Shown here piece after piece: positions 4,777 through 37,003 of a stretch of 37,003 nucleotides of DNA. The stretch is taken from NCBI GenBank assembly GCA_024695705.1, contig JAILHP010000032.1:1-37003 (forward strand), read 5' to 3'. The DNA is from Prevotella sp. Its GTDB lineage: Bacteria > Bacteroidota > Bacteroidia > Bacteroidales > Bacteroidaceae. The position numbers and the translations under genes are program-made. The number at the start of each line of letters is the position of its first letter. Within the stretch, counting starts at the first letter, position 1. The notes beneath the pieces are model-generated. The model made no database searches. It was not told where the DNA came from and saw only the letters and a program-made list of their open reading frames with translations.

Positions 4777-4880
4777 GCTGCAAAGATAGGGAAAAGTTAG
4801 GAGTTAGAAGTTCTTTTAGTCGTTAATCTTTGTAAAAGCGGCAGAGCCGAGCGAGGAGTTAGGAGTTTTTTGTTTTTTTT

Positions 4881-4929
4881 CACTCATCAACCACCACTCA
4901 CCATTCATCAACTACCACTTACCATTCAT
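4881..4929. repeat. Heptamer tract (7 units) at the 3' end of dusB
   Basis: CACTCAT CAACCAC CACTCAC CATTCAT CAACTAC CACTTAC CATTCAT; the dusB stop lies inside it. Confidence 0.9.
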
Positions 4930-5880
4930 CAAAATTTCCTTCGCCTTGTCAATGATGCTGAGGAGTTCCTCCACTTTGGTGGCCCGCAACATGTCAATAC
5001 GTGTCTGCCGGAAGTTGGGAATACCTTTGAAGACCGGACTGGCTGCCAAGTGACGACGGGTGTGCAGGATGCCGCGGTATTCGTCGATGCGCTCCACGTT
5101 GATGCGCAGCTGCTCCTTCAGCACGTTGATCTTTTCGTCTAATGACAGCTCCCTGCGAGAGAAGATCCACGGACACCCGAAAGTGGCACGGCCAATCATG
5201 ACGCCATCCACACCATACTGCTCAAAGGCAGCGTCAGCCTCTGCCAGCGAATGGATATCGCCGTTACCGATGATGGGGATACGGATGCGTGGATTACGCT
5301 TCACCTCGCCGATAAGCGTCCAGTCGGCCTCTCCCGTGTACATCTGTGCCCGGGTACGGCCATGAATGGTCAGTGTCTGGATGCCGCAGTCCTGCAACTG
5401 TTCGGCCAGGTCGGTGATGATGAGCTGCTCATTGTTCCAGCCCAGACGGGTCTTGACGGTGACAGGCACGCGGACAGCCTTTACCACCTCGCGTGTTATC
5501 TCCAGCAGCAGCGGGATATTTTGTAACATACCGGCACCTGCACCCTTGCTGGCCACCTTCTTCACAGGACAGCCGAAGTTCAGGTCTATGACGTCAGGAC
5601 GGGCCTCCTCCACGATGCGGGCAGCTTCAACCATCGCCTCCACGTCACGTCCGTAGATCTGAATACCCACGGGACGCTCTTCGTCGCTGATGGTCAGCTT
5701 CTTCACGGTGCTGTTGACGTTGCGCACCAGCGCCTCGGCCGACACAAACTCCGTATAGACCATCGCTGCACCATAACGCTTACACAACAATCGGAACCCG
5801 ATGTCGGTAACGTCCTCCATCGGTGCCAACAGCAACGGTCTTTCGCCTAAGTCTATTCCACCTATACCCCCAATCCTCAC
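4912..5880 (-). CDS. dusB: tRNA-dihydrouridine synthase (DusB-like)
   Basis: LLLAPMEDVTDIGFRLLCKRYGAAMVYTEF, DLNFGCPVKKVASKGAGAGML, TIHGRTRAQMYTGEADW, GNGDI, DGVMIGRATFGCPWIF. Confidence 0.92.
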   Translation of the reverse strand: MRIGGIGGIDLGERPLLLAPMEDVTDIGFRLLCKRYGAAMVYTEFVSAEALVRNVNSTVKKLTISDEERPVGIQIYGRDVEAMVEAARIVEEARPDVIDLNFGCPVKKVASKGAGAGMLQNIPLLLEITREVVKAVRVPVTVKTRLGWNNEQLIITDLAEQLQDCGIQTLTIHGRTRAQMYTGEADWTLIGEVKRNPRIRIPIIGNGDIHSLAEADAAFEQYGVDGVMIGRATFGCPWIFSRRELSLDEKINVLKEQLRINVERIDEYRGILHTRRHLAASPVFKGIPNFRQTRIDMLRATKVEELLSIIDKAKEILMNGKW

Positions 5881-7465: not shown

Positions 7466-8050
7466 CTACTTTACCTCCATCTCCTTAACGAAACGGCCCT
7501 CGGTGGTGAAGACAAGCAGAACGGAGAAACGGCCGCCCTCGTCGGGGTCGGGGTTGTAGCGGTAGGACTGCATGACGATGTAGGTCTCATCCTCCCCGCA
7601 GAAGCCTACGAGACCGGAATTGGAAGACAGCTGGAAGGCCTTCTTAGTGTTCAGGTCAATGACATACGACCACACGTTACGCGAGTCGGGCACTCCCTCG
7701 ACGATGACCTTGCTCTCACCTGGAACAAAGCGGGCCTTGTAGGCAGCAGCAATCTGTGTCAGGGGCACGTTGACGGCATTGCGGTCCTGCATACGGTCCC
7801 ACATGCCTTCTGCATCAGGATTAGTGACCAGCAGCCGGGTAGCCGTTTTTGTTTGTTTGTTGACGATCCAGACGGACATGATGTCAGGGGTTCCTTCGTC
7901 TTCATCGCCCGCGCGATCATAGTTCAGATAAACCTGTTGGAAGCCGTTGTCGTCGGCCAACTGTGCCGTAGCAGGCAGTTTGGTTTGTGCCGTTGACGAC
8001 ATTGCCGTCATCAACAACAGTACTGTAAAGAGGGATTTCAGTTGTTTCAT
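7466..8050 (-). CDS. Hypothetical secreted protein (start revised)
   Basis: Signal peptide MKQLKSLFTVLLLMTAMSSTAQ begins at 8050; the longer ORF start at 8176 translates a promoter repeat. Confidence 0.75.
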   Translation of the reverse strand: MKQLKSLFTVLLLMTAMSSTAQTKLPATAQLADDNGFQQVYLNYDRAGDEDEGTPDIMSVWIVNKQTKTATRLLVTNPDAEGMWDRMQDRNAVNVPLTQIAAAYKARFVPGESKVIVEGVPDSRNVWSYVIDLNTKKAFQLSSNSGLVGFCGEDETYIVMQSYRYNPDPDEGGRFSVLLVFTTEGRFVKEMEVK

Positions 8051-8075: not shown

Positions 8076-8251
8076 CAAAGGTACGAATAAGCGAGAAGAA
8101 AACCAAAAGTATTTTGGATTTTCTTGAGCGAGAGTACCTTCGATGAAGTCAAAGGTAGTAATAATTCATCATTCATAATTCATAATTTTTAAGGCGGCAG
8201 CAAATTTTTCACTTTTCACTCTTCACTTTTCACTTAAAATGATTACCTTTG
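8076..8251. repeat. Composite divergent-promoter repeat, copy A
   Basis: CAAAGGTACGAATAAGCGAGAAGAAAACCAAAAGTATTTTGGATTTTCTTGAGCGAGAGTACCTTCG...TCAAAGGTAGTAA...GGCGGCAGCAAATTTTTCACTTTTCACTCTTCACTTTTCACTTAAAATGATTACCTTTG; near-identical to 14263-14450 and to the reverse complement of 24669-24866. Confidence 0.85.
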
Positions 8252-8256
8252 CGGGC

Positions 8257-9555
8257 ATGGAACAACTGTTGCATTATGTTTGGAAGCACAAGATGTTTCC
8301 GCTCAAAGAACTGATGACGACCGACGGCAGGAAAGTGGAAGTCATTGACTCAGGACTGCACAACCGTAACGCCGGCCCTGACTTCTTCAATGCGAAGGTG
8401 AAGATTGACGGTACGCTATGGGTGGGTAACGTGGAGATACACGACCGGTCAAGCGACTGGTACCGTCATGGGCACGACCATGACTCGGCCTATGACAACG
8501 TGGTGCTGCACGTGGCGGGCGTTATCGACTCGGAGGTACAGACCACCAGCGGACAGCAACTGCCGCAGCTGCAGTTAGACGTGCCGCCCATGGTGCAGCA
8601 GCAATATGACGAACTGCTGAAGACTGACCAGTATCCTCCCTGCTACAAGATTATCCCCGACCTGTCGTTACTGACCGTCCATGCCTGGATGGCAGCCTTG
8701 CAGACGGAACGGCTGGAGCGGAAGACGGAGGATATCCGCAAACGAGCCGACCGTTGCAACGGCTCTTGGGAGGATGCCTACTTTGTGACGCTGGCCCGTA
8801 ACTACGGCTTCGGCATCAACGGCGATGCCTTCGAGCAGTGGGCATACCATGTGCCTCTCTCGGCGGTGGGCAAGCATCGTGACGACCTGTTCCAAATAGA
8901 GGCCATCTTCATGGGACAGGCAGGACTGCTGGAGCTCGACACCGTACCCGCTCATTATCAGAAGGATGCGCTGAACGAGGGCTACTTCGCAAAACTGCGC
9001 AATGAGTACCAGTACCTGGCGCATAAGTTCTCGCTGCAACCCATGAATGTCACGCTGTGGCGCTTCCTTCGTCTGCGTCCGCAGAACTTCCCCCACATCC
9101 GCATCTCGCAGCTGGCCAATCTCTATTACGAACGGAAGGCATCGTTGTCAAAGCTCATTGAGTGTCAATCGGTCAAGGAGATGCAGGAGATGATGCGAAC
9201 CCACGTCACCCCCTATTGGGAAACGCACTATACCTTTGGCTCCGAAAGTCCGGAAAACAGCAAACACCTGTCGCCTTTCTCGCTGAACCTGCTGATGATC
9301 AACACCGCCATCCCCATGCTCTTTGCCTATGGGCGCCATGCTTCGAAGGAGCAGTTGTGCGACCGTGCCTTCGACTTCCTGGAAGAGTTGAAAGCGGAGA
9401 ACAACCACATCATCCGGATGTGGCGCGACTGTGGCTTGGAAGTCAAGAATGCCGGTGACTCCCAGGCGCTGATACAACTCAAGAAGGAATACTGCGACCG
9501 CAAGGACTGTCTGCGCTGTCGCTTTGGCTTTGAGTACCTAAGGAAAAACAGCTAA
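8257..9555 (+). CDS. DUF2851 family protein
   Basis: MEQLLHYVWKHKMFPL...VEVIDSGLHNRNAGPDFFNAKVKIDGTLWVGNVEIHDRSSDWYRHGHDHDSAYDNVVLHVA; C-terminal CDRKDCLRCRFGFEYL. Confidence 0.88.
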   Translation: MEQLLHYVWKHKMFPLKELMTTDGRKVEVIDSGLHNRNAGPDFFNAKVKIDGTLWVGNVEIHDRSSDWYRHGHDHDSAYDNVVLHVAGVIDSEVQTTSGQQLPQLQLDVPPMVQQQYDELLKTDQYPPCYKIIPDLSLLTVHAWMAALQTERLERKTEDIRKRADRCNGSWEDAYFVTLARNYGFGINGDAFEQWAYHVPLSAVGKHRDDLFQIEAIFMGQAGLLELDTVPAHYQKDALNEGYFAKLRNEYQYLAHKFSLQPMNVTLWRFLRLRPQNFPHIRISQLANLYYERKASLSKLIECQSVKEMQEMMRTHVTPYWETHYTFGSESPENSKHLSPFSLNLLMINTAIPMLFAYGRHASKEQLCDRAFDFLEELKAENNHIIRMWRDCGLEVKNAGDSQALIQLKKEYCDRKDCLRCRFGFEYLRKNS

Positions 9556-9563
9556 ATTCTCCG

Positions 9564-10196
9564 CTACAAATAGAAAATTGCTTCTGGCCCCATACAGAAG
9601 AGCAAATCAAGAATACTGAGGTTGGGCTGGAAGCCGAATTTGTGCGCAAAAACCTGATAGTAGGGCTTTGTAGAGTGTAGAGTGTAGAGTGTAGAGTCTG
9701 CTACCGCGATACCTTTTGCAGAGACATCATGGGCGGTAGCAAACTCTACACTTTTCATTCTAAACTTTTCACTATGTAAGACGTGGGGATGGATGTCAAG
9801 GAGTTCACATATCTTCTGCATGATTTCGAAGTTGAAATCGTAGAGGAATTCATAGTCTTGCTCGAAGAATGGACGGAGGTCGTCCGCGTAAAACTCAAAG
9901 AAGGGGCTTTCGCTGTAGGCCGACTGCAAGGCGTTCCAGTGGACGCGGCGCCACGAGCCGTGGTTGCTGATGCGGACGTCGCGGATTAGGCGGCTACCCC
10001 CGTGCTCAATGGGAACGGTAAGGGCCTGCTGACCATTGGCGGTGGCAATGATGCAACGGTTTCGGTAGGTCTGCTTGATGAACGACTCGCAGGCCTCCAG
10101 ATAGACAACATCTGCACGGTTCAGCTGCTGATACCACTCAACAGGGCCGAAGTAGGTAGTGGTAAGAAGGGTCTCACCCCCTTTGTCCTTCATCAT
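9564..10196 (-). CDS. WbqC family protein
   Basis: TTYFGPVEWYQQLNRADVVYLEACESFIKQTYRNRC...TKPYYQVFAHKFGFQPNLSILDLLFCMGPEA; carries a repeat-derived insert before KPYYQVF. Confidence 0.88.
   Translation of the reverse strand: MMKDKGGETLLTTTYFGPVEWYQQLNRADVVYLEACESFIKQTYRNRCIIATANGQQALTVPIEHGGSRLIRDVRISNHGSWRRVHWNALQSAYSESPFFEFYADDLRPFFEQDYEFLYDFNFEIMQKICELLDIHPHVLHSEKFRMKSVEFATAHDVSAKGIAVADSTLYTLHSTKPYYQVFAHKFGFQPNLSILDLLFCMGPEAIFYL
9671..9698. repeat. Heptanucleotide tandem repeat (TAGAGTG x4, last unit TAGAGTC) inside the WbqC gene
   Basis: Sequence TAGAGTG TAGAGTG TAGAGTG TAGAGTC. Confidence 0.95.
9688..9752. repeat. Inverted repeat, 20-bp arms (19/20), inside the WbqC gene
   Basis: AGTGTAGAGTCTGCTACCGC (9688-9707) versus GCGGTAGCAAACTCTACACT (9733-9752), 25-nt spacer. 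Confidence 0.95.
9743..9777. repeat. Degenerate heptamer tract, second arm in WbqC
   Basis: ACTCTAC ACTTTTC ATTCTAA ACTTTTC ACTATGT. Confidence 0.8.
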
Positions 10197-12249: not shown

Positions 12250-12981
12250 CTAAAACTTAAACATATCGGAAATCGTTAATAATCCCTGATGCTTGGCCGT
12301 ATATTCGGCAGCAAGCACGGCACCAAGGGCAAACCCCTTACGTGAGTGGGCATCGTGAGTGATGGTGATGATGTCAGCGTCTGAGTCGTAGCGCACGGTA
12401 TGAATGCCAGCAACTTCGCCTCGACGGATGTGGTCAACCCTTAAGAGTTTGGGATCTGTGGTTTCTTCTGCCCATGCCTCCTTGCGGTCGATACGCTCCA
12501 CTATCTCCTCCGCCAGCGTGATGGCTGTACCACTGGGATGGTCAAGTTTATGCACATGGTGCGTCTCTTCCATCTCCACGTCGTACTGCGGAAACTCGTT
12601 CATGATCTTGGCCAGGTAACGGTTGACGGCCGAGAAGATGGCCACGCCGATTGAGAAGTTAGAGGCCCAGAAGAGGGTGGAGGGTTGAGGGTGGAGGGTA
12701 GAGGGCGTGCATGCCTGGCGCACGTCGTCGCCATGTTCCTTCATCCAGCCCGTCGAGCCGCTTACCACCTTCACGCTCTTGGCCCACGCCTTGAGATAGT
12801 TGCCGTAGGCGGCCTGCGGAGCGGTGAACTCAATGGCGACATCGGCCGAGGCAAACTCTGGTGAGTCAAAGTCCTGCTGGTTGTCAATGTCTATGATACT
12901 TACAATCTCATGGCCACGGTCGCGGGCAATCTGCTCAATCATCTTGCCCATCTTACCGTAGCCGATTAATGCTATCTTCAT
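12250..12981 (-). CDS. dapB: 4-hydroxy-tetrahydrodipicolinate reductase
   Basis: MKIALIGYGKMGKMIEQIARDRGHEIV, SGSTGW, WASNFSIGVAIFSAVNRYLAKIMNEFPQYDVEMEETHHVHKLDHPSGTAITLAEEI; start set at MKIALIG. Confidence 0.95.
   Translation of the reverse strand: MKIALIGYGKMGKMIEQIARDRGHEIVSIIDIDNQQDFDSPEFASADVAIEFTAPQAAYGNYLKAWAKSVKVVSGSTGWMKEHGDDVRQACTPSTLHPQPSTLFWASNFSIGVAIFSAVNRYLAKIMNEFPQYDVEMEETHHVHKLDHPSGTAITLAEEIVERIDRKEAWAEETTDPKLLRVDHIRRGEVAGIHTVRYDSDADIITITHDAHSRKGFALGAVLAAEYTAKHQGLLTISDMFKF
12673..12705. repeat. Heptamer tract (GAGGGTN x4 plus GAGGG) inside dapB
   Basis: GAGGGTG GAGGGTT GAGGGTG GAGGGTA GAGGG; encodes the STLHPQPSTL segment. Confidence 0.9.
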
Positions 12982-13005
12982 GTCTTTTCTCTTTTTTAAT
13001 CGCTG

Positions 13006-13036
13006 CAAAGGTAGTGCAAACCGAGAGAAATGCAAA
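13006..13036 (-). promoter_or_regulatory. Bacteroidetes-type promoter for dapB
   Basis: Minus strand TTTG (13033-13036), 19-nt spacer, TACCTTTG (13006-13013). Confidence 0.6.
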
Positions 13037-13113
13037 ATAATTTACAAATTATTATCATTTCCGAGGTGCTGCCTACCTAAGAGACGTAGTCTCAAAGGTA
13101 ACAAAAAAGTGAT

Positions 13114-13134
13114 GTCACTTAGGACTTGTCACTT
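13114..13134. repeat. Heptamer tract at the 3' end of the SGNH hydrolase gene
   Basis: GTCACTT AGGACTT GTCACTT. Confidence 0.75.
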
Positions 13135-14233
13135 AAAACCAGTGCATCAGGGTCCTGAGGTAGGCTGTCAGCTCACCGGCCATCTTCTGGTGCTGCCAGA
13201 TGGAGGGATGCCAGTCGGCACCATAGAAGAGGTCGCCGGTCTGAGGCGTGAAGTTGAAGCGATACACCTCCATGTCACCGTTCTTATGCGCATCCTCCAC
13301 GAGCTGGTCCAGCGTCTTCTTGGCCACCTCCAGTTCCGGACCGTTCATCATCGAGCCGGTGAGCAGCACAATCTTCGCCTTGGGGTTATGGCTGCGCACC
13401 TGACTGACAAAGCGGTAGAAAGCCTGTTGGAACAGCTTCACGTCGTAGTTATTGGTTGATAAGTCGTTGGTGCCCAGGTTGATGCACACCACCTGCGGCT
13501 GGTAGCGGCTGAAGTCCCAGCGCTCCGAACGGTCGTACAGGTTGGTGTATTCGTACTCGGTGGTCATCACGTTCTGCGGGGTGCCCGTCTTCGGACCGCC
13601 ATACTGACGATAGACGCCGATGCCCGAGCGGGCCACCACATAGGCCATGGCATCCAGCGCACGGGCCGTCATCTGGGCGTAGCCATAGTAGTGGTTCTCC
13701 GTGGCATATTCAAAATGGTCTGACTCTTTCACGCTCTCGTTGCCATAGGCGCAGGTGATGCTGTTGCCGATAAACTCAATGGTACGCTCAGGCAGGGTCG
13801 GCGCATCGAGCATCGTGCCGTCCTTGTCAAGCACGAAGCCACGGAACTCAGGTTTCAGCTCGTAGCCCTCCACCACGTACATCAGTCGTACCAGGTGTTC
13901 GCCGCGCTGCATGGCAGTGGCCAGTGTCACCACGGAGTCAGCCTCACTCATGAAGCTCACCTTGAAAGGCTCCGCCTCATCAATCTGTGCCATGAAGTAG
14001 CCGCTCTTCGGCTTGGCCATCATCCTGAGCGACGTTCCCGTGAAGCGGGCGTTGATCTGCACGCCAGGGAAGGTGAAGCGCGGGCGCTGGGGGTTCTGGA
14101 AACAGATGCGTCCCACATATTGTATATGCGAGTCGTCGGCAGGAATCACTTTTCCCTGTATGGGCAGTGTGGTCGAGGCTTGGCCAGCGAGTACCGTCAG
14201 CAAGGCGACGGCAGCAATAAGCATTCTTTTCAT
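13133..14233 (-). CDS. SGNH/GDSL hydrolase, acetylxylan esterase-like (CE2-like)
   Basis: IEFIGNSITCAYGNE, VCINLGTNDLSTNNYD, GADWHPSIWQHQKMAGELTAYL; start revised to MKRMLIAAVALLTVLAGQAS. Confidence 0.85.
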   Translation of the reverse strand: MKRMLIAAVALLTVLAGQASTTLPIQGKVIPADDSHIQYVGRICFQNPQRPRFTFPGVQINARFTGTSLRMMAKPKSGYFMAQIDEAEPFKVSFMSEADSVVTLATAMQRGEHLVRLMYVVEGYELKPEFRGFVLDKDGTMLDAPTLPERTIEFIGNSITCAYGNESVKESDHFEYATENHYYGYAQMTARALDAMAYVVARSGIGVYRQYGGPKTGTPQNVMTTEYEYTNLYDRSERWDFSRYQPQVVCINLGTNDLSTNNYDVKLFQQAFYRFVSQVRSHNPKAKIVLLTGSMMNGPELEVAKKTLDQLVEDAHKNGDMEVYRFNFTPQTGDLFYGADWHPSIWQHQKMAGELTAYLRTLMHWF

Positions 14234-14262: not shown

Positions 14263-14450
14263 CAAAGGTACGAATAAGCAAGTAGAAAACCAAAAGAATT
14301 TTGGATTTTCTCAAGCGAGAGTACCTTCAACCGTCAGGTCAAAGGTAGTAAAAATACATAATTCATAATTCATAATTCATATTTTTTTATGGGCGGCAGC
14401 AAATTCTTCACTTTTCACTCTTCACTTTTCACTTAAAATGATTACCTTTG
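14263..14450. repeat. Composite divergent-promoter repeat, copy B
   Basis: CAAAGGTACGAATAAGCAAGTAGAAAACCAAAAGAATTTTGGATTTTCTCAAGCGAGAGTACCTTC...GTCAAAGGTAGTAA...GGGCGGCAGCAAATTCTTCACTTTTCACTCTTCACTTTTCACTTAAAATGATTACCTTTG. Confidence 0.85.
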
Positions 14451-14482
14451 TAGCGATGAAACACTAACAACAAGCATCAGAT

Positions 14483-24668: not shown

Positions 24669-24866
24669 CAAAGGTACGAATTTTTTGTGAAAAATGAAAA
24701 GTGAAAAGTGAATAATTTGCTGCAGCCCTACTAAAAAAGAAAAAACTCCTAAATCTTAACTCTTAAATCCTAACTTTTTATTACCTTTGATTTGATGGTC
24801 GAAGGTACTCTCGCGCGAGAAAATCCAAAAATCTTTTGGTTTTCTTCTCGCTTATTCGTACCTTTG
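24669..24866. repeat. Composite divergent-promoter repeat, copy C (inverted relative to A and B)
   Basis: Reverse complement reads CAAAGGTACGAATAAGCGAGAAGAAAACCAAAAGATTTTTGGATTTTCTCGCGCGAGAGTACCTTCGACCATCAAATCAAAGGTAATAA...GCAGCAAATTATTCACTTTTCACTTTTCATTTTTCAC...TACCTTTG. Confidence 0.85.
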
Positions 24867-24971: not shown

Positions 24972-26426
24972 ATGATGAAAAGAACAGTATTCGGATTGAT
25001 GCTGACGCTCGTGGCTGTCAGCTCACAGGCAAAGGTGAGGTTGCCGCATATCATTTGCGACAACATGGTACTACAACAACAGACCGAAGCACGCCTCTGG
25101 GGCTGGGCGAAGGCTGGCAAGGAGGTAAAGGTGACCGCCTCGTGGGACGGAAAGACCGTCAGCACCAAGGCCGATGCCAATGGCAAGTGGCTCGTCAAGG
25201 TGCAGACACCCACGGCTTCCTATACGCCGTACAGCATCACTTTTGATGACGGTGACGGCAAGGTAACCATCCAGAATGTACTTGCTGGCGAGGTATGGGT
25301 ATGTGCCGGACAGTCGAACATGGAGATGCCCCTCAAAGGCTTCGGCCAGTGTCCCGTGGAGAACTTCAACCAATTGGTGATGGAAGCTCAGAATCCCAAT
25401 GGGGTACGCAGTGTAAAGATTCCCAGCATCATGCGTGCAACCCCACAGGAGGATGCCGACTGTAGCTGGAAAGAGTGTACGCCGCAGAACGTTATTGAGT
25501 TCTCGGCCACGGGCTATTTCTTTGCCCGTCTGGTCAACAAGGCACTCGGCATTCCCGTCGGCCTCATCGAAGCCAACAAAGGAGGCTCGCGTGTGGAAAG
25601 CTGGCTAACGAAGGAGAACCTGCAGCGTTACACGGACGACCCGACCGACTCCCTGGAGATTGTCAAGCGCTGGCCACAGTGGGACTACCACCGCTCGCTG
25701 CTGTGGGGCAACGGTACGTTTAACCCCATCCTAAACTACACCGTCAAGGGCATCTTGTTCTATCAGGGATGTTCCAACGTGGGCGACCCAGGCAACCAGT
25801 ATTCCGAACGGCTGAAGCTGCTGGTGGAGCAATGGCGCAGCCAGTTCGGACTGGGCGAGATACCCTTCTACTTCGTTGAAATCGCCCCTTATTGGTATGA
25901 CGATGACAACGGAGTGAGCGGTGCCTTGCTCCGTGAACAGCAGTTCCGTGCTTCACAGATCATCCCCAATAGCGGCCTGGTATGCACCAACGACTGCGTC
26001 TATCCCTACGAGCGGGAACAGATACACCCCACACAGAAGCAGAAAGTGGGCGAACGCCTTGCCTTCCTCGCCCTGAACGAGCAGTACGGCATGAAATCCA
26101 TCATTGCCAGGAGCCCCTCGTTCAAGGAGCTGACGGTGAAGAACGACACCGTTTTCGTCCATTTCAACGATGAGTTCGGCGGTCTGAACCGCTTCGAGGG
26201 CATTGAAGGCTTTGAGATTGCCGGAGCCGACCAGGTGTATCACAAGGCGGAGGCGCGTCACTTCTGGCGTCCTGGCGGCGACAAGTGGGACGAGGCACTC
26301 ATCGTTTTCTCTCCCGAAGTCAAGAAACCGGTGGCTATACGCTACTGCTTCCACAATTTCCAGATTGGTAACCTGGGAAACATGGGCGGTCTGCCTCTGT
26401 TCCCGTTTGCAGCGAAGTGTGAATGA
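24972..26426 (+). CDS. Sialate O-acetylesterase family protein
   Basis: KVRLPHIICDNMVLQQQTEARLWGWAKAGKEVKV, GEVWVCAGQSNMEMPL, GLIEANKGGSRVESWL, FYQGCSNVGDPGNQYSERLKLLVEQWR. Confidence 0.93.
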   Translation: MMKRTVFGLMLTLVAVSSQAKVRLPHIICDNMVLQQQTEARLWGWAKAGKEVKVTASWDGKTVSTKADANGKWLVKVQTPTASYTPYSITFDDGDGKVTIQNVLAGEVWVCAGQSNMEMPLKGFGQCPVENFNQLVMEAQNPNGVRSVKIPSIMRATPQEDADCSWKECTPQNVIEFSATGYFFARLVNKALGIPVGLIEANKGGSRVESWLTKENLQRYTDDPTDSLEIVKRWPQWDYHRSLLWGNGTFNPILNYTVKGILFYQGCSNVGDPGNQYSERLKLLVEQWRSQFGLGEIPFYFVEIAPYWYDDDNGVSGALLREQQFRASQIIPNSGLVCTNDCVYPYEREQIHPTQKQKVGERLAFLALNEQYGMKSIIARSPSFKELTVKNDTVFVHFNDEFGGLNRFEGIEGFEIAGADQVYHKAEARHFWRPGGDKWDEALIVFSPEVKKPVAIRYCFHNFQIGNLGNMGGLPLFPFAAKCE

Positions 26427-35612: not shown

Positions 35613-37003
35613 ATGCGTGACTTCAAAGACATAAAAATCGCTGTGGCAGGCACTGGTTATGTAGGCCTGTCAATTGCTACCTTATTATCACAGCACCACC
35701 AGGTGACGGCAGTGGATGTCATCCCTGAGAAGGTGGATATGCTGAACAAGAAACAGTCGCCCATCCAGGACGAGTATATTGAGAAATACCTTCGGGAGAA
35801 AGATCTGCATCTTACGGCGACCCTCGATGGTGCCGCTGCCTATCAGGATGCTGACTATGTAATTATCGCTGCTCCCACGAACTATGACCCTGTAAAGAAC
35901 TTCTTCGATACCCATCATATCGAGGATGTCATAGACTTGGTAATCAGTGTAAACCCCGATGCAGTGATGGTCATCAAGAGTACCATTCCTGTGGGCTACT
36001 GCCGTAACCTCTATGTACGCTATGCCCTGAAGTTCGCCTCGACACCAGAGCTGAAGGACAAGAAGTTCAACCTGCTGTTCTCTCCGGAGTTTCTGCGTGA
36101 GAGTAAGGCCCTCTATGACAACCTTTATCCCAGTCGCATCATTGTGGGTTATCCCAAAAAGATTGATAACCCGGAATTCGCTGAGGAGAATGCTGCCATC
36201 CAGGCTTTCGGAAATCCTGAAGCAGAACAATACGCCCATACCTTCGCTGATCTCCTCCTAGAAGGTGCCATCGGCCCCCAAGGAAGCGAAGACAAAACAA
36301 GTGCGGAAGCAAATTCTTCATTCTTCACTCTTCATTCTTCATTAAAGAAAGGCATTCCTGTTCTCTTCATGGGTCTGAAGGAGGCCGAGGCTGTCAAGCT
36401 CTTTGCGAATACCTATCTGGCACTGCGTGTGAGCTATTTCAATGAGCTGGACACCTATAGTGAGGTAAAGGGTTTGGATACGAAGAGTATCATTCGTGGC
36501 GTAAGCCTCGATCCTCGTGTAGGAGATTACTATAACAACCCTAGCTTCGGTTATGGCGGCTACTGTCTGCCGAAAGATACGAAGCAGCTACTGGCTAACT
36601 ATAGCCACGTGCCCCAGAACATGATGACGGCCATCGTGGAGAGTAATCGTACGCGTAAGGACTTCATTGCGGATCAGGTGCTACGCAAAGCTGGTTATTA
36701 TGACTATACCTCACACAACCAATATGCAGCAGAGGAGAAAGAAGTGACGATAGGCATCTATCGTCTGACGATGAAGAGTAACTCTGATAATTTCCGTCAG
36801 TCGAGTATCCAGGGTGTGATGAAGCGTATCAAGGCGAAGGGGGCACGTCTCATCATCTTCGAACCTACCTTGAAAGAGGGTACGACATTCTTCGGCAGTC
36901 TGGTGGTTAACGACTTAGAGAAGTTCAAGTCACAGAGTGATGCCATCATCGCCAACCGTTATGATGCCTGTCTCTCTGACGTTGAAGACAAGGTATATAC
37001 CCG
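35613..37003 (+). CDS. ugd: UDP-glucose/nucleotide-sugar 6-dehydrogenase (truncated at window end)
   Basis: [117 protein letters not shown]. Not in the ORF track (no stop in window). Confidence 0.93.
36313..36340. repeat. Heptamer tract inside ugd
   Basis: ATTCTTC ATTCTTC ACTCTTC ATTCTTC ATTAAAG, preceded by GCGGAAGCAA. Confidence 0.9.

Follow-up and report, generated by a model that had tools for sequence, protein, structure and literature searches.

A dispersed palindromic element of rumen Prevotella is probably a miniature one-way mobile promoter that targets the -7 box of existing promoters

The window, that is, the whole 37,003-nucleotide stretch of Prevotella DNA that was analysed, carries several copies of a short palindromic element located upstream of genes. 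We consider it probable (roughly three chances in four) that this element, ~75-90 bp long, is a miniature one-way mobile promoter and inserts at the -7 box of an existing promoter. We observed dispersal, orientation relative to genes, empty sites, a box at each end of the element, stacked copies and compensatory changes in pairing, and promoter activity is what we infer from the consensus only. The source genome is a rumen Prevotella MAG (2.18 Mb assembly, 74% complete), whose closest named relatives are also rumen Prevotella.

A sequence-only reading had described the 176 bp at 8076-8251 as one composite repeat with a palindromic two-way promoter core. We found that this region consists of two things, a palindromic element at 8076-8157, which ends at the close of the second CAAAGGTA (8150-8157), and a separate heptad-repeat promoter at ~8158-8251. 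Positions 8152-8256 belong to a different repeat with 41 host-genome matches of its own; this right half is composed of GGCGGCAGCAAA, 7-bp repeats and TACCTTTG, and is the predicted promoter of the plus-strand gene. The composite stood as an arrangement, found only at copies A, B and C and on contig C84, but as a rule its halves are separate dispersed repeats. The predicted plus-strand promoter at 8244-8251 is separate from the element insertion and, judging by sequence comparison, older. The relevant features are as follows.

8076-8157, minus strand: element copy A, matching host repeats and the covariance model, with an empty site in the nearest relative (L083/L172)
8076-8083, minus strand: gene-proximal -7 box TACCTTTG of copy A, 25 nt from the ATG at 8050
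8104-8107, minus strand: -33 box TTTG of copy A, within the gene-proximal palindrome arm
8134-8142, minus strand: arm CGAAGGTAC of copy A, complementary to both boxes, with a sequence that tracks the downstream box
8150-8157, minus strand: gene-distal -7 box TACCTTTG of copy A, compared with the empty site
7466-8050, minus strand: gene for a hypothetical protein, with copy A as predicted promoter
8194-8237, plus strand: GCGGCAGCAAA and heptad array (TTTTCAC)n, a separate dispersed repeat upstream of the plus-strand gene
8244-8251, plus strand: -7 box TACCTTTG of the plus-strand neighbour, outside the inserted element, with an equivalent promoter in L083
8257-9555, plus strand: divergent gene, DUF2851-like, recognised from sequence
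14263-14347, minus strand: element copy B, boxes at 14263-14270 and 14340-14347, orthologue in relative G120 without element; predicted promoter of a minus-strand gene with its start near 14230 and its end at 13133
24782-24866, plus strand: element copy C, boxes at 24782-24789 and 24859-24866, missing in relatives G120 and G121; predicted promoter of the gene at 24972-26426 (plus strand)
13005-13069, minus strand: fourth, diverged copy of the CTCGGTTTGCAC spacer type, upstream of the gene at 12250-12981 (minus strand)

Several observations were made on the heptad repeats themselves. Arrays with a 7-bp period adjoined -7 boxes on their upstream side at 8194-8237, 14393-14436, 24669-24741, 9733-9776, 36303-36346 and 4781-4930, with TTTTCAC, AATTCAT, AACTCTC, AGTTAGG and others as units. 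In a non-random sample of fetched sequence, period 7 was by far the commonest tandem-repeat period in spacers, and such arrays numbered 99 in 33.7 kb of spacers versus 59 in ~181 kb of coding sequence. The heptad sequence differed between orthologous promoters. Besides, the regions of A (8076-8264) and B (14263-14463) were alike across the whole divergent spacer of ~190 bp (89-93% in aligned parts), which looks like copying of the composite in one piece, and the orthologue of B in G120 was without the composite.

The element is highly repeated in its host. The genome search proposed earlier with the ~85-bp core was run with an 89-bp query from copy A and returned 45 host-genome matches (BLAST, E<=0.01), which is far above chance, and an element profile gave 71 matches in 215 kb of fetched sequence. 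Copies B and C are real and share the architecture of A, as had been claimed, with 88-89% identity across the 89-base query and 92-94% over shorter ungapped stretches. For copies A, B and C, which were also in its training set, a covariance model gave scores of 94-103 bits, and for the weaker fourth copy, located between two co-directional genes, 36.5 bits. No match to a known structured RNA was found when the family models of Rfam 15 were compared with the window.

In the promoter direction, the element reads TAnnTTTG, a variable small loop, CGAAGGTAC, TCTCGCTCG, a palindrome of variable sequence, CTCGCTTATTCG and again TAnnTTTG. In copy A, on the minus strand, this order corresponds to an upstream box TACCTTTG (8150-8157), loop, arm, palindrome and a downstream box TACCTTTG (8076-8083). 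Among 48 copies parsed by sequence pattern, a sample in which strongly diverged copies are under-represented, 40 had TTTG 19-20 nt ahead of the downstream TAnnTTTG (0.8 in shuffled sequences), and thus matched the Bacteroidales sigma-ABfr consensus (TTTG at -33, 19-20 nt, TAnnTTTG at -7). On the reverse strand, TAnnTTTG was present as a -7 box in 0 of the 48, with TACCTTCG or similar in its place. The forward spacing and the consistent lack of a reverse TAnnTTTG make the element, by consensus, a one-way promoter. The sequence-only reading had located its signals exactly, both on the minus strand (TACCTTTG at 8076-8083 and TTTG at 8104-8107 with a 20-nt spacer) and on the plus strand (TTTG at 8113-8116, an 18-nt spacer and TACCTTCG at 8135-8142), with CCAAAAGTATTTTGG at the centre; the imperfect symmetry it described holds at the level of the palindrome but not at that of the promoter boxes.

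That reading took the whole for a mobile, MITE-like bidirectional promoter cassette specific to divergent gene pairs. Copies A-C indeed each lie between divergently transcribed ORFs, there are two symmetric cases (C135 and C77), and divergent spacers were occupied in 26 of 40 cases, compared with 12 of 55 tandem and none of 7 convergent ones, in fetched host sequence that was non-random, having been chosen for holding these elements or heptad repeats. However, placement is not restricted to divergent pairs: 12 of the 38 element-bearing spacers in this sequence were tandem (26 divergent, none convergent), and the fourth copy at 13005-13069 (minus strand) is in a co-directional spacer. The enrichment between divergent genes is also mild when counted per gene start (26/80 versus 12/55, with gene starts from a simple caller). 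A simple count found 59 of 61 element matches co-directional with a gene, which overstates orientation, since an element between divergent genes faces one of them whichever way it points. We therefore used tandem spacers as the test of orientation, and in these the element faced the downstream gene in 12 of 12. Placement random with respect to gene orientation, which had been named as an argument against the cassette, was thus not what we found, with all tandem copies correctly oriented and convergent spacers empty. What is not supported is the two-way design: together with the single orientation in tandem spacers, the absence of a reverse -7 box makes a bidirectional, divergent-specific cassette a most improbable explanation. 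The mobile and MITE-like part of the claim fared better, since the element is dispersed, of MITE size and present as lineage-specific insertions opposite empty sites.

Orthologous empty sites are, in our judgement, the decisive evidence for insertion, in that relatives have one predicted -7 box where the host has box-element-box. In the nearest relative (L083), the locus of copy A has the same neighbours and a single box, ..TTATTACCTTTG TACCCACAATCAT.., whereas the window has ..TTACTACCTTTG [ACTTCATCGAAGG..TTATTCGTACCTTTG] TGCCCAAATCATT... The inserted stretch measures 74 bp (8076-8149, which is equivalent to 8084-8157); an 8-bp box stands at each end, and the proximal one at 8076-8083 occupies the place of the orthologue's sole -7 box. 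We interpret the box at 8150-8157 as the likely pre-insertion -7 box, shifted ~74 bp upstream. For 32 host loci, we set the upstream region against its counterparts in three relatives, mostly draft MAGs, and the element was missing from 40 of 56 orthologous promoters. A box was present at 30 of these empty sites, and its distance from the gene start agreed within 4 nt in 19; it was off by more than 4 nt in about a third, so leaders change too. For example, at recO the host reads ..TTATTATCTTTG-element-TACCTTTGCATCGTTATG and relative G123 reads ..TTTAGTACCTTTGCATGGTTATG; similarly, at yidC, G120 has ..TTTTTTGTACCTTTGCACCTTGTTATA and the host has the same ends around the insert. Further empty sites were found for C59 and others. 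Stacking was observed at nuoA (these gene names are read from translations), where no element is present in G121 and a single one in G120; the host has the element of G120 and, inserted at the box of that element, another one. At the locus of copy C, G123 has related elements in the opposite, divergent promoter. The same genome carries identical copies upstream of two different genes, at contig ends, which suggests recent spread. Being short, non-coding and multicopy, with orthologous empty sites, the element has the traits of a MITE.

No clean empty site was seen when the tadA promoters of X. ruminicola strains D31d and Ga6B6 were compared, the other strain having a different palindromic promoter. 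The tadA genes at X. ruminicola loci L291 (G323) and L286 (G324) are 94% identical, but the promoters at this position, both palindromic, are unrelated to each other; that of Ga6B6 has palindrome arms GGCACGAATT..AATTCGTGCC.

The same comparisons bear on whether transposition is needed. Recombination or gene conversion among loci, together with tandem duplication, could instead have spread promoter modules, and this would account for the likeness of A and B over the whole composite (~190 bp) and for tandem arrays of near-identical units, which could grow via unequal recombination rather than insertion. We find this unlikely, as clean insertions occur at unrelated genes that have just the 8-bp box in common, with little homology available.

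The hairpin formed by the element is maintained by compensatory changes, including in other families. In 27 host copies, a 21-pair structure was 94.9% paired, and 11 pairs showed two-sided changes; its score was reached by 0 of 500 shuffles, and slid controls were 43-55% paired. The structure was drawn partly from the same host sequences, so the paired percentage alone is weak and the two-sided changes carry the weight. Among 23 matches (21 distinct) from other Bacteroidales families, two-sided changes were found in 16 of the 21 pairs, in an alignment fitted to the model. Furthermore, the small loop that follows the upstream box forms a stem as well, with at least 3 Watson-Crick pairs in 15 of 48 copies (2.7 in shuffled sequences, maximum 9), and the arm can pair with either box.

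Two further explanations can be weighed against this structure. In an ordinary regulon, the palindrome would be the dimeric operator of one transcription factor, kept by selection next to promoters. Its overlap with the -33 box, the strict promoter association and the conserved flanking motifs CTYTCGCTCG and CTCGCTTATTCG are consistent with such an operator. However, arm sequences differ widely among copies with pairing retained, unlike a sequence-specific operator, and the downstream genes look functionally mixed from their translations. Presence or absence flips between orthologues, an 8-bp box is present at both ends, and copies stack, all of which makes a regulon quite unlikely. Alternatively, transcripts from the upstream box might read through the element, which would then act in the leader RNA as an attenuator with two mutually exclusive hairpins. 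The arm's ability to pair with either box, and the upstream box often being still intact, agree with this model. Yet the predicted start of the element's own downstream promoter lies past the element, which often ends 5-60 nt ahead of the gene start, several copies (C40:40743, C83, C87) have no upstream box, the 3' end has no terminator-like U run, and dispersal is left unexplained; we regard an attenuator as very unlikely.

A mobile one-way promoter would work as follows. The element would insert at the TAnnTTTG of an existing Bacteroidales promoter, giving the order old box, element, new box. The gene-proximal palindrome arm would provide a new -33 TTTG, 19-20 nt ahead of the new -7 box, which would take the place of the old one relative to the gene, such that the start site would be nearly unmoved and everything upstream of -7 would be replaced by the element. 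Now ~75 nt further upstream, the old -7 box, in many cases together with the region preceding it, might serve as a second promoter, and repeated insertion into the newest box would stack promoters. The same end product is expected from transposition with an 8-bp duplication, from Campbell-type recombination at the box and from single-strand insertion 3' of the target, the IS200/IS605 mode. The end boxes were identical in 32 of 48 copies (19.6 in shuffled sequences, maximum 25), and where they differed the arm matched the downstream box at 30 of 33 positions and the upstream box at 14 of 33. This bias favours a downstream box carried by the element, although it could also have come from decay of the displaced upstream box. 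Against an element-borne downstream box, C28 has the downstream box TAATTTTG, the same as in its empty orthologue. With its arm pairing with a box, the element resembles a folded single-strand substrate. It is possible, if doubtful, that a promoter-hunting element is mobilised as folded ssDNA by a recombinase, with arm-box pairing selecting the target and with arm and box co-evolved across Bacteroidales families, in which TACCTTTG occurs with GAAGGTA, and TATCTTTG with TAGATA or GAAGATA.

A candidate mover was sought in several ways. No transposase or autonomous copy of the element was identified in the host genome, and a search for PF01797 (Y1) gave none there, the assembly being 74% complete. 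Similarly, G094 (99% complete, 37 element matches) and other copy-rich genomes were not among the 63 genomes with PF01797 matches, and 20 loci around Y1 genes of relatives contained two weak, distant element matches only. A RAYT/IS200-type mover was rejected: Y1 is missing in the host, and the ~250-330 aa Y1 proteins of relatives are mostly flanked by other repeats, e.g. GGGACAGGTTTTTGATT. Many of the Prevotella Y1 proteins at L225-L244 (~250-300 aa, IHQNPxxAG), which are RAYT-like, were flanked by their own GGGGACAGG-type repeats. The outer stem CGAAGGTAC/GTACCTTTG is present, and no parent IS was seen. A larger autonomous version was likewise not supported by a left-end pattern search, which gave mostly known short copies and few others; the inspected matches C97 (host) and C36 (G120) were ordinary copies. 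In the single-contig genome G117, copies on both strands were interspersed, and no replication-strand bias was visible by eye, the origin not being mapped.

The covariance model matched 94 of 120 same-genus genomes, with up to dozens of copies each; the 26 genomes without a match indicate that it does not merely fire on promoters. The seven closest named relatives had 30-78 matches. In the rest of the order, 11 of 196 other genomes matched, some with at least 10 copies, and copies there had TATCTTTG boxes with TTAGATAC or GAAGATAC arms. Cultured carriers include Xylanibacter brevis ATCC 19188 (30 matches) and X. ruminicola (5-6). In the G253 group, the hairpin is present without a TAnnTTTG box. 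Three identical hairpin copies in G253 (L260, L261 and L262, two of them at contig ends) have the same conserved internal motifs, but their outer stem is GTTGC/GCAAC and they lack a -7 box. The element's right end (20 nt) is contained in four IMG/VR contigs (L079-L082); in at least one of them, L080, it is upstream of a cellular-looking gene resembling mutS2 and may represent the host flank of a provirus.

Several known systems are similar in part. Mobile promoters (Matus-Garcia et al. 2012; van Passel et al. 2014, as described in PMC8049555 and PMC4596501, which cite them) are short dispersed repeats that are promoters or are assumed to be. The element resembles them, as far as those citing descriptions go, in its size, its assumed promoter role and its spread in genomes, and differs in its -7-box target, conserved hairpin, stacking and one-way design. 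Correia elements use TA rather than a promoter box as insertion site, and their TIRs are related to an IS. They are MITEs of Neisseria with promoters, small non-autonomous repeats upstream of genes (PMC10969869). The element is likewise small, upstream of genes and a predicted promoter, in another phylum. The BrickBuilt MITE of Porphyromonas gingivalis is, in the parts of its description available to us, intergenic, with 23-bp tandem repeats, IS-like TIRs and bidirectional promoter activity demonstrated by assay in E. coli (PMC4596501). It shares with the element the order Bacteroidales and an intergenic location, and differs in that no -7-box targeting is reported in those parts of PMC4596501. 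REP/REPIN elements, associated with RAYTs, are many-copy, hairpin-shaped imperfect palindromes (PMC3733652). In contrast to these, the element has no identified GTAG/CGTC tag, sits at promoters and has no RAYT found in its host; RAYT-like genes of relatives are flanked by repeats other than the element. IS200/IS605 ends have a hairpin, insert 3' of a fixed short target and pair with the target through an internal sequence. By analogy, the element may be compared with them in its hairpin, its ends in a target copy and the internal arm that could pair with the target, but no TnpA was found, the target is 8 nt rather than 4-5, and strand bias was not obvious in one single-contig genome. The defining features of REP/RAYT and IS200/IS605 were looked for and not found, and we place the element in neither group. 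Mobile promoters, Correia elements and BrickBuilt appear closest in kind, and none, in the accounts consulted, targets the -7 box. The open-access literature yielded no description of the element, and an earlier description elsewhere is possible.

If the proposed reading is true, nature would have in this element a means of rewiring transcription one gene at a time that leaves the genes themselves intact: each insertion would hit a start signal and give the gene a ready-made promoter. Such an element could rewire gene expression genome-wide. It would also offer a natural set of matched promoter swaps for studies of Bacteroidales transcription. Closely related Prevotella differ at most such promoters, and this could underlie fast regulatory divergence in these dominant gut and rumen bacteria.
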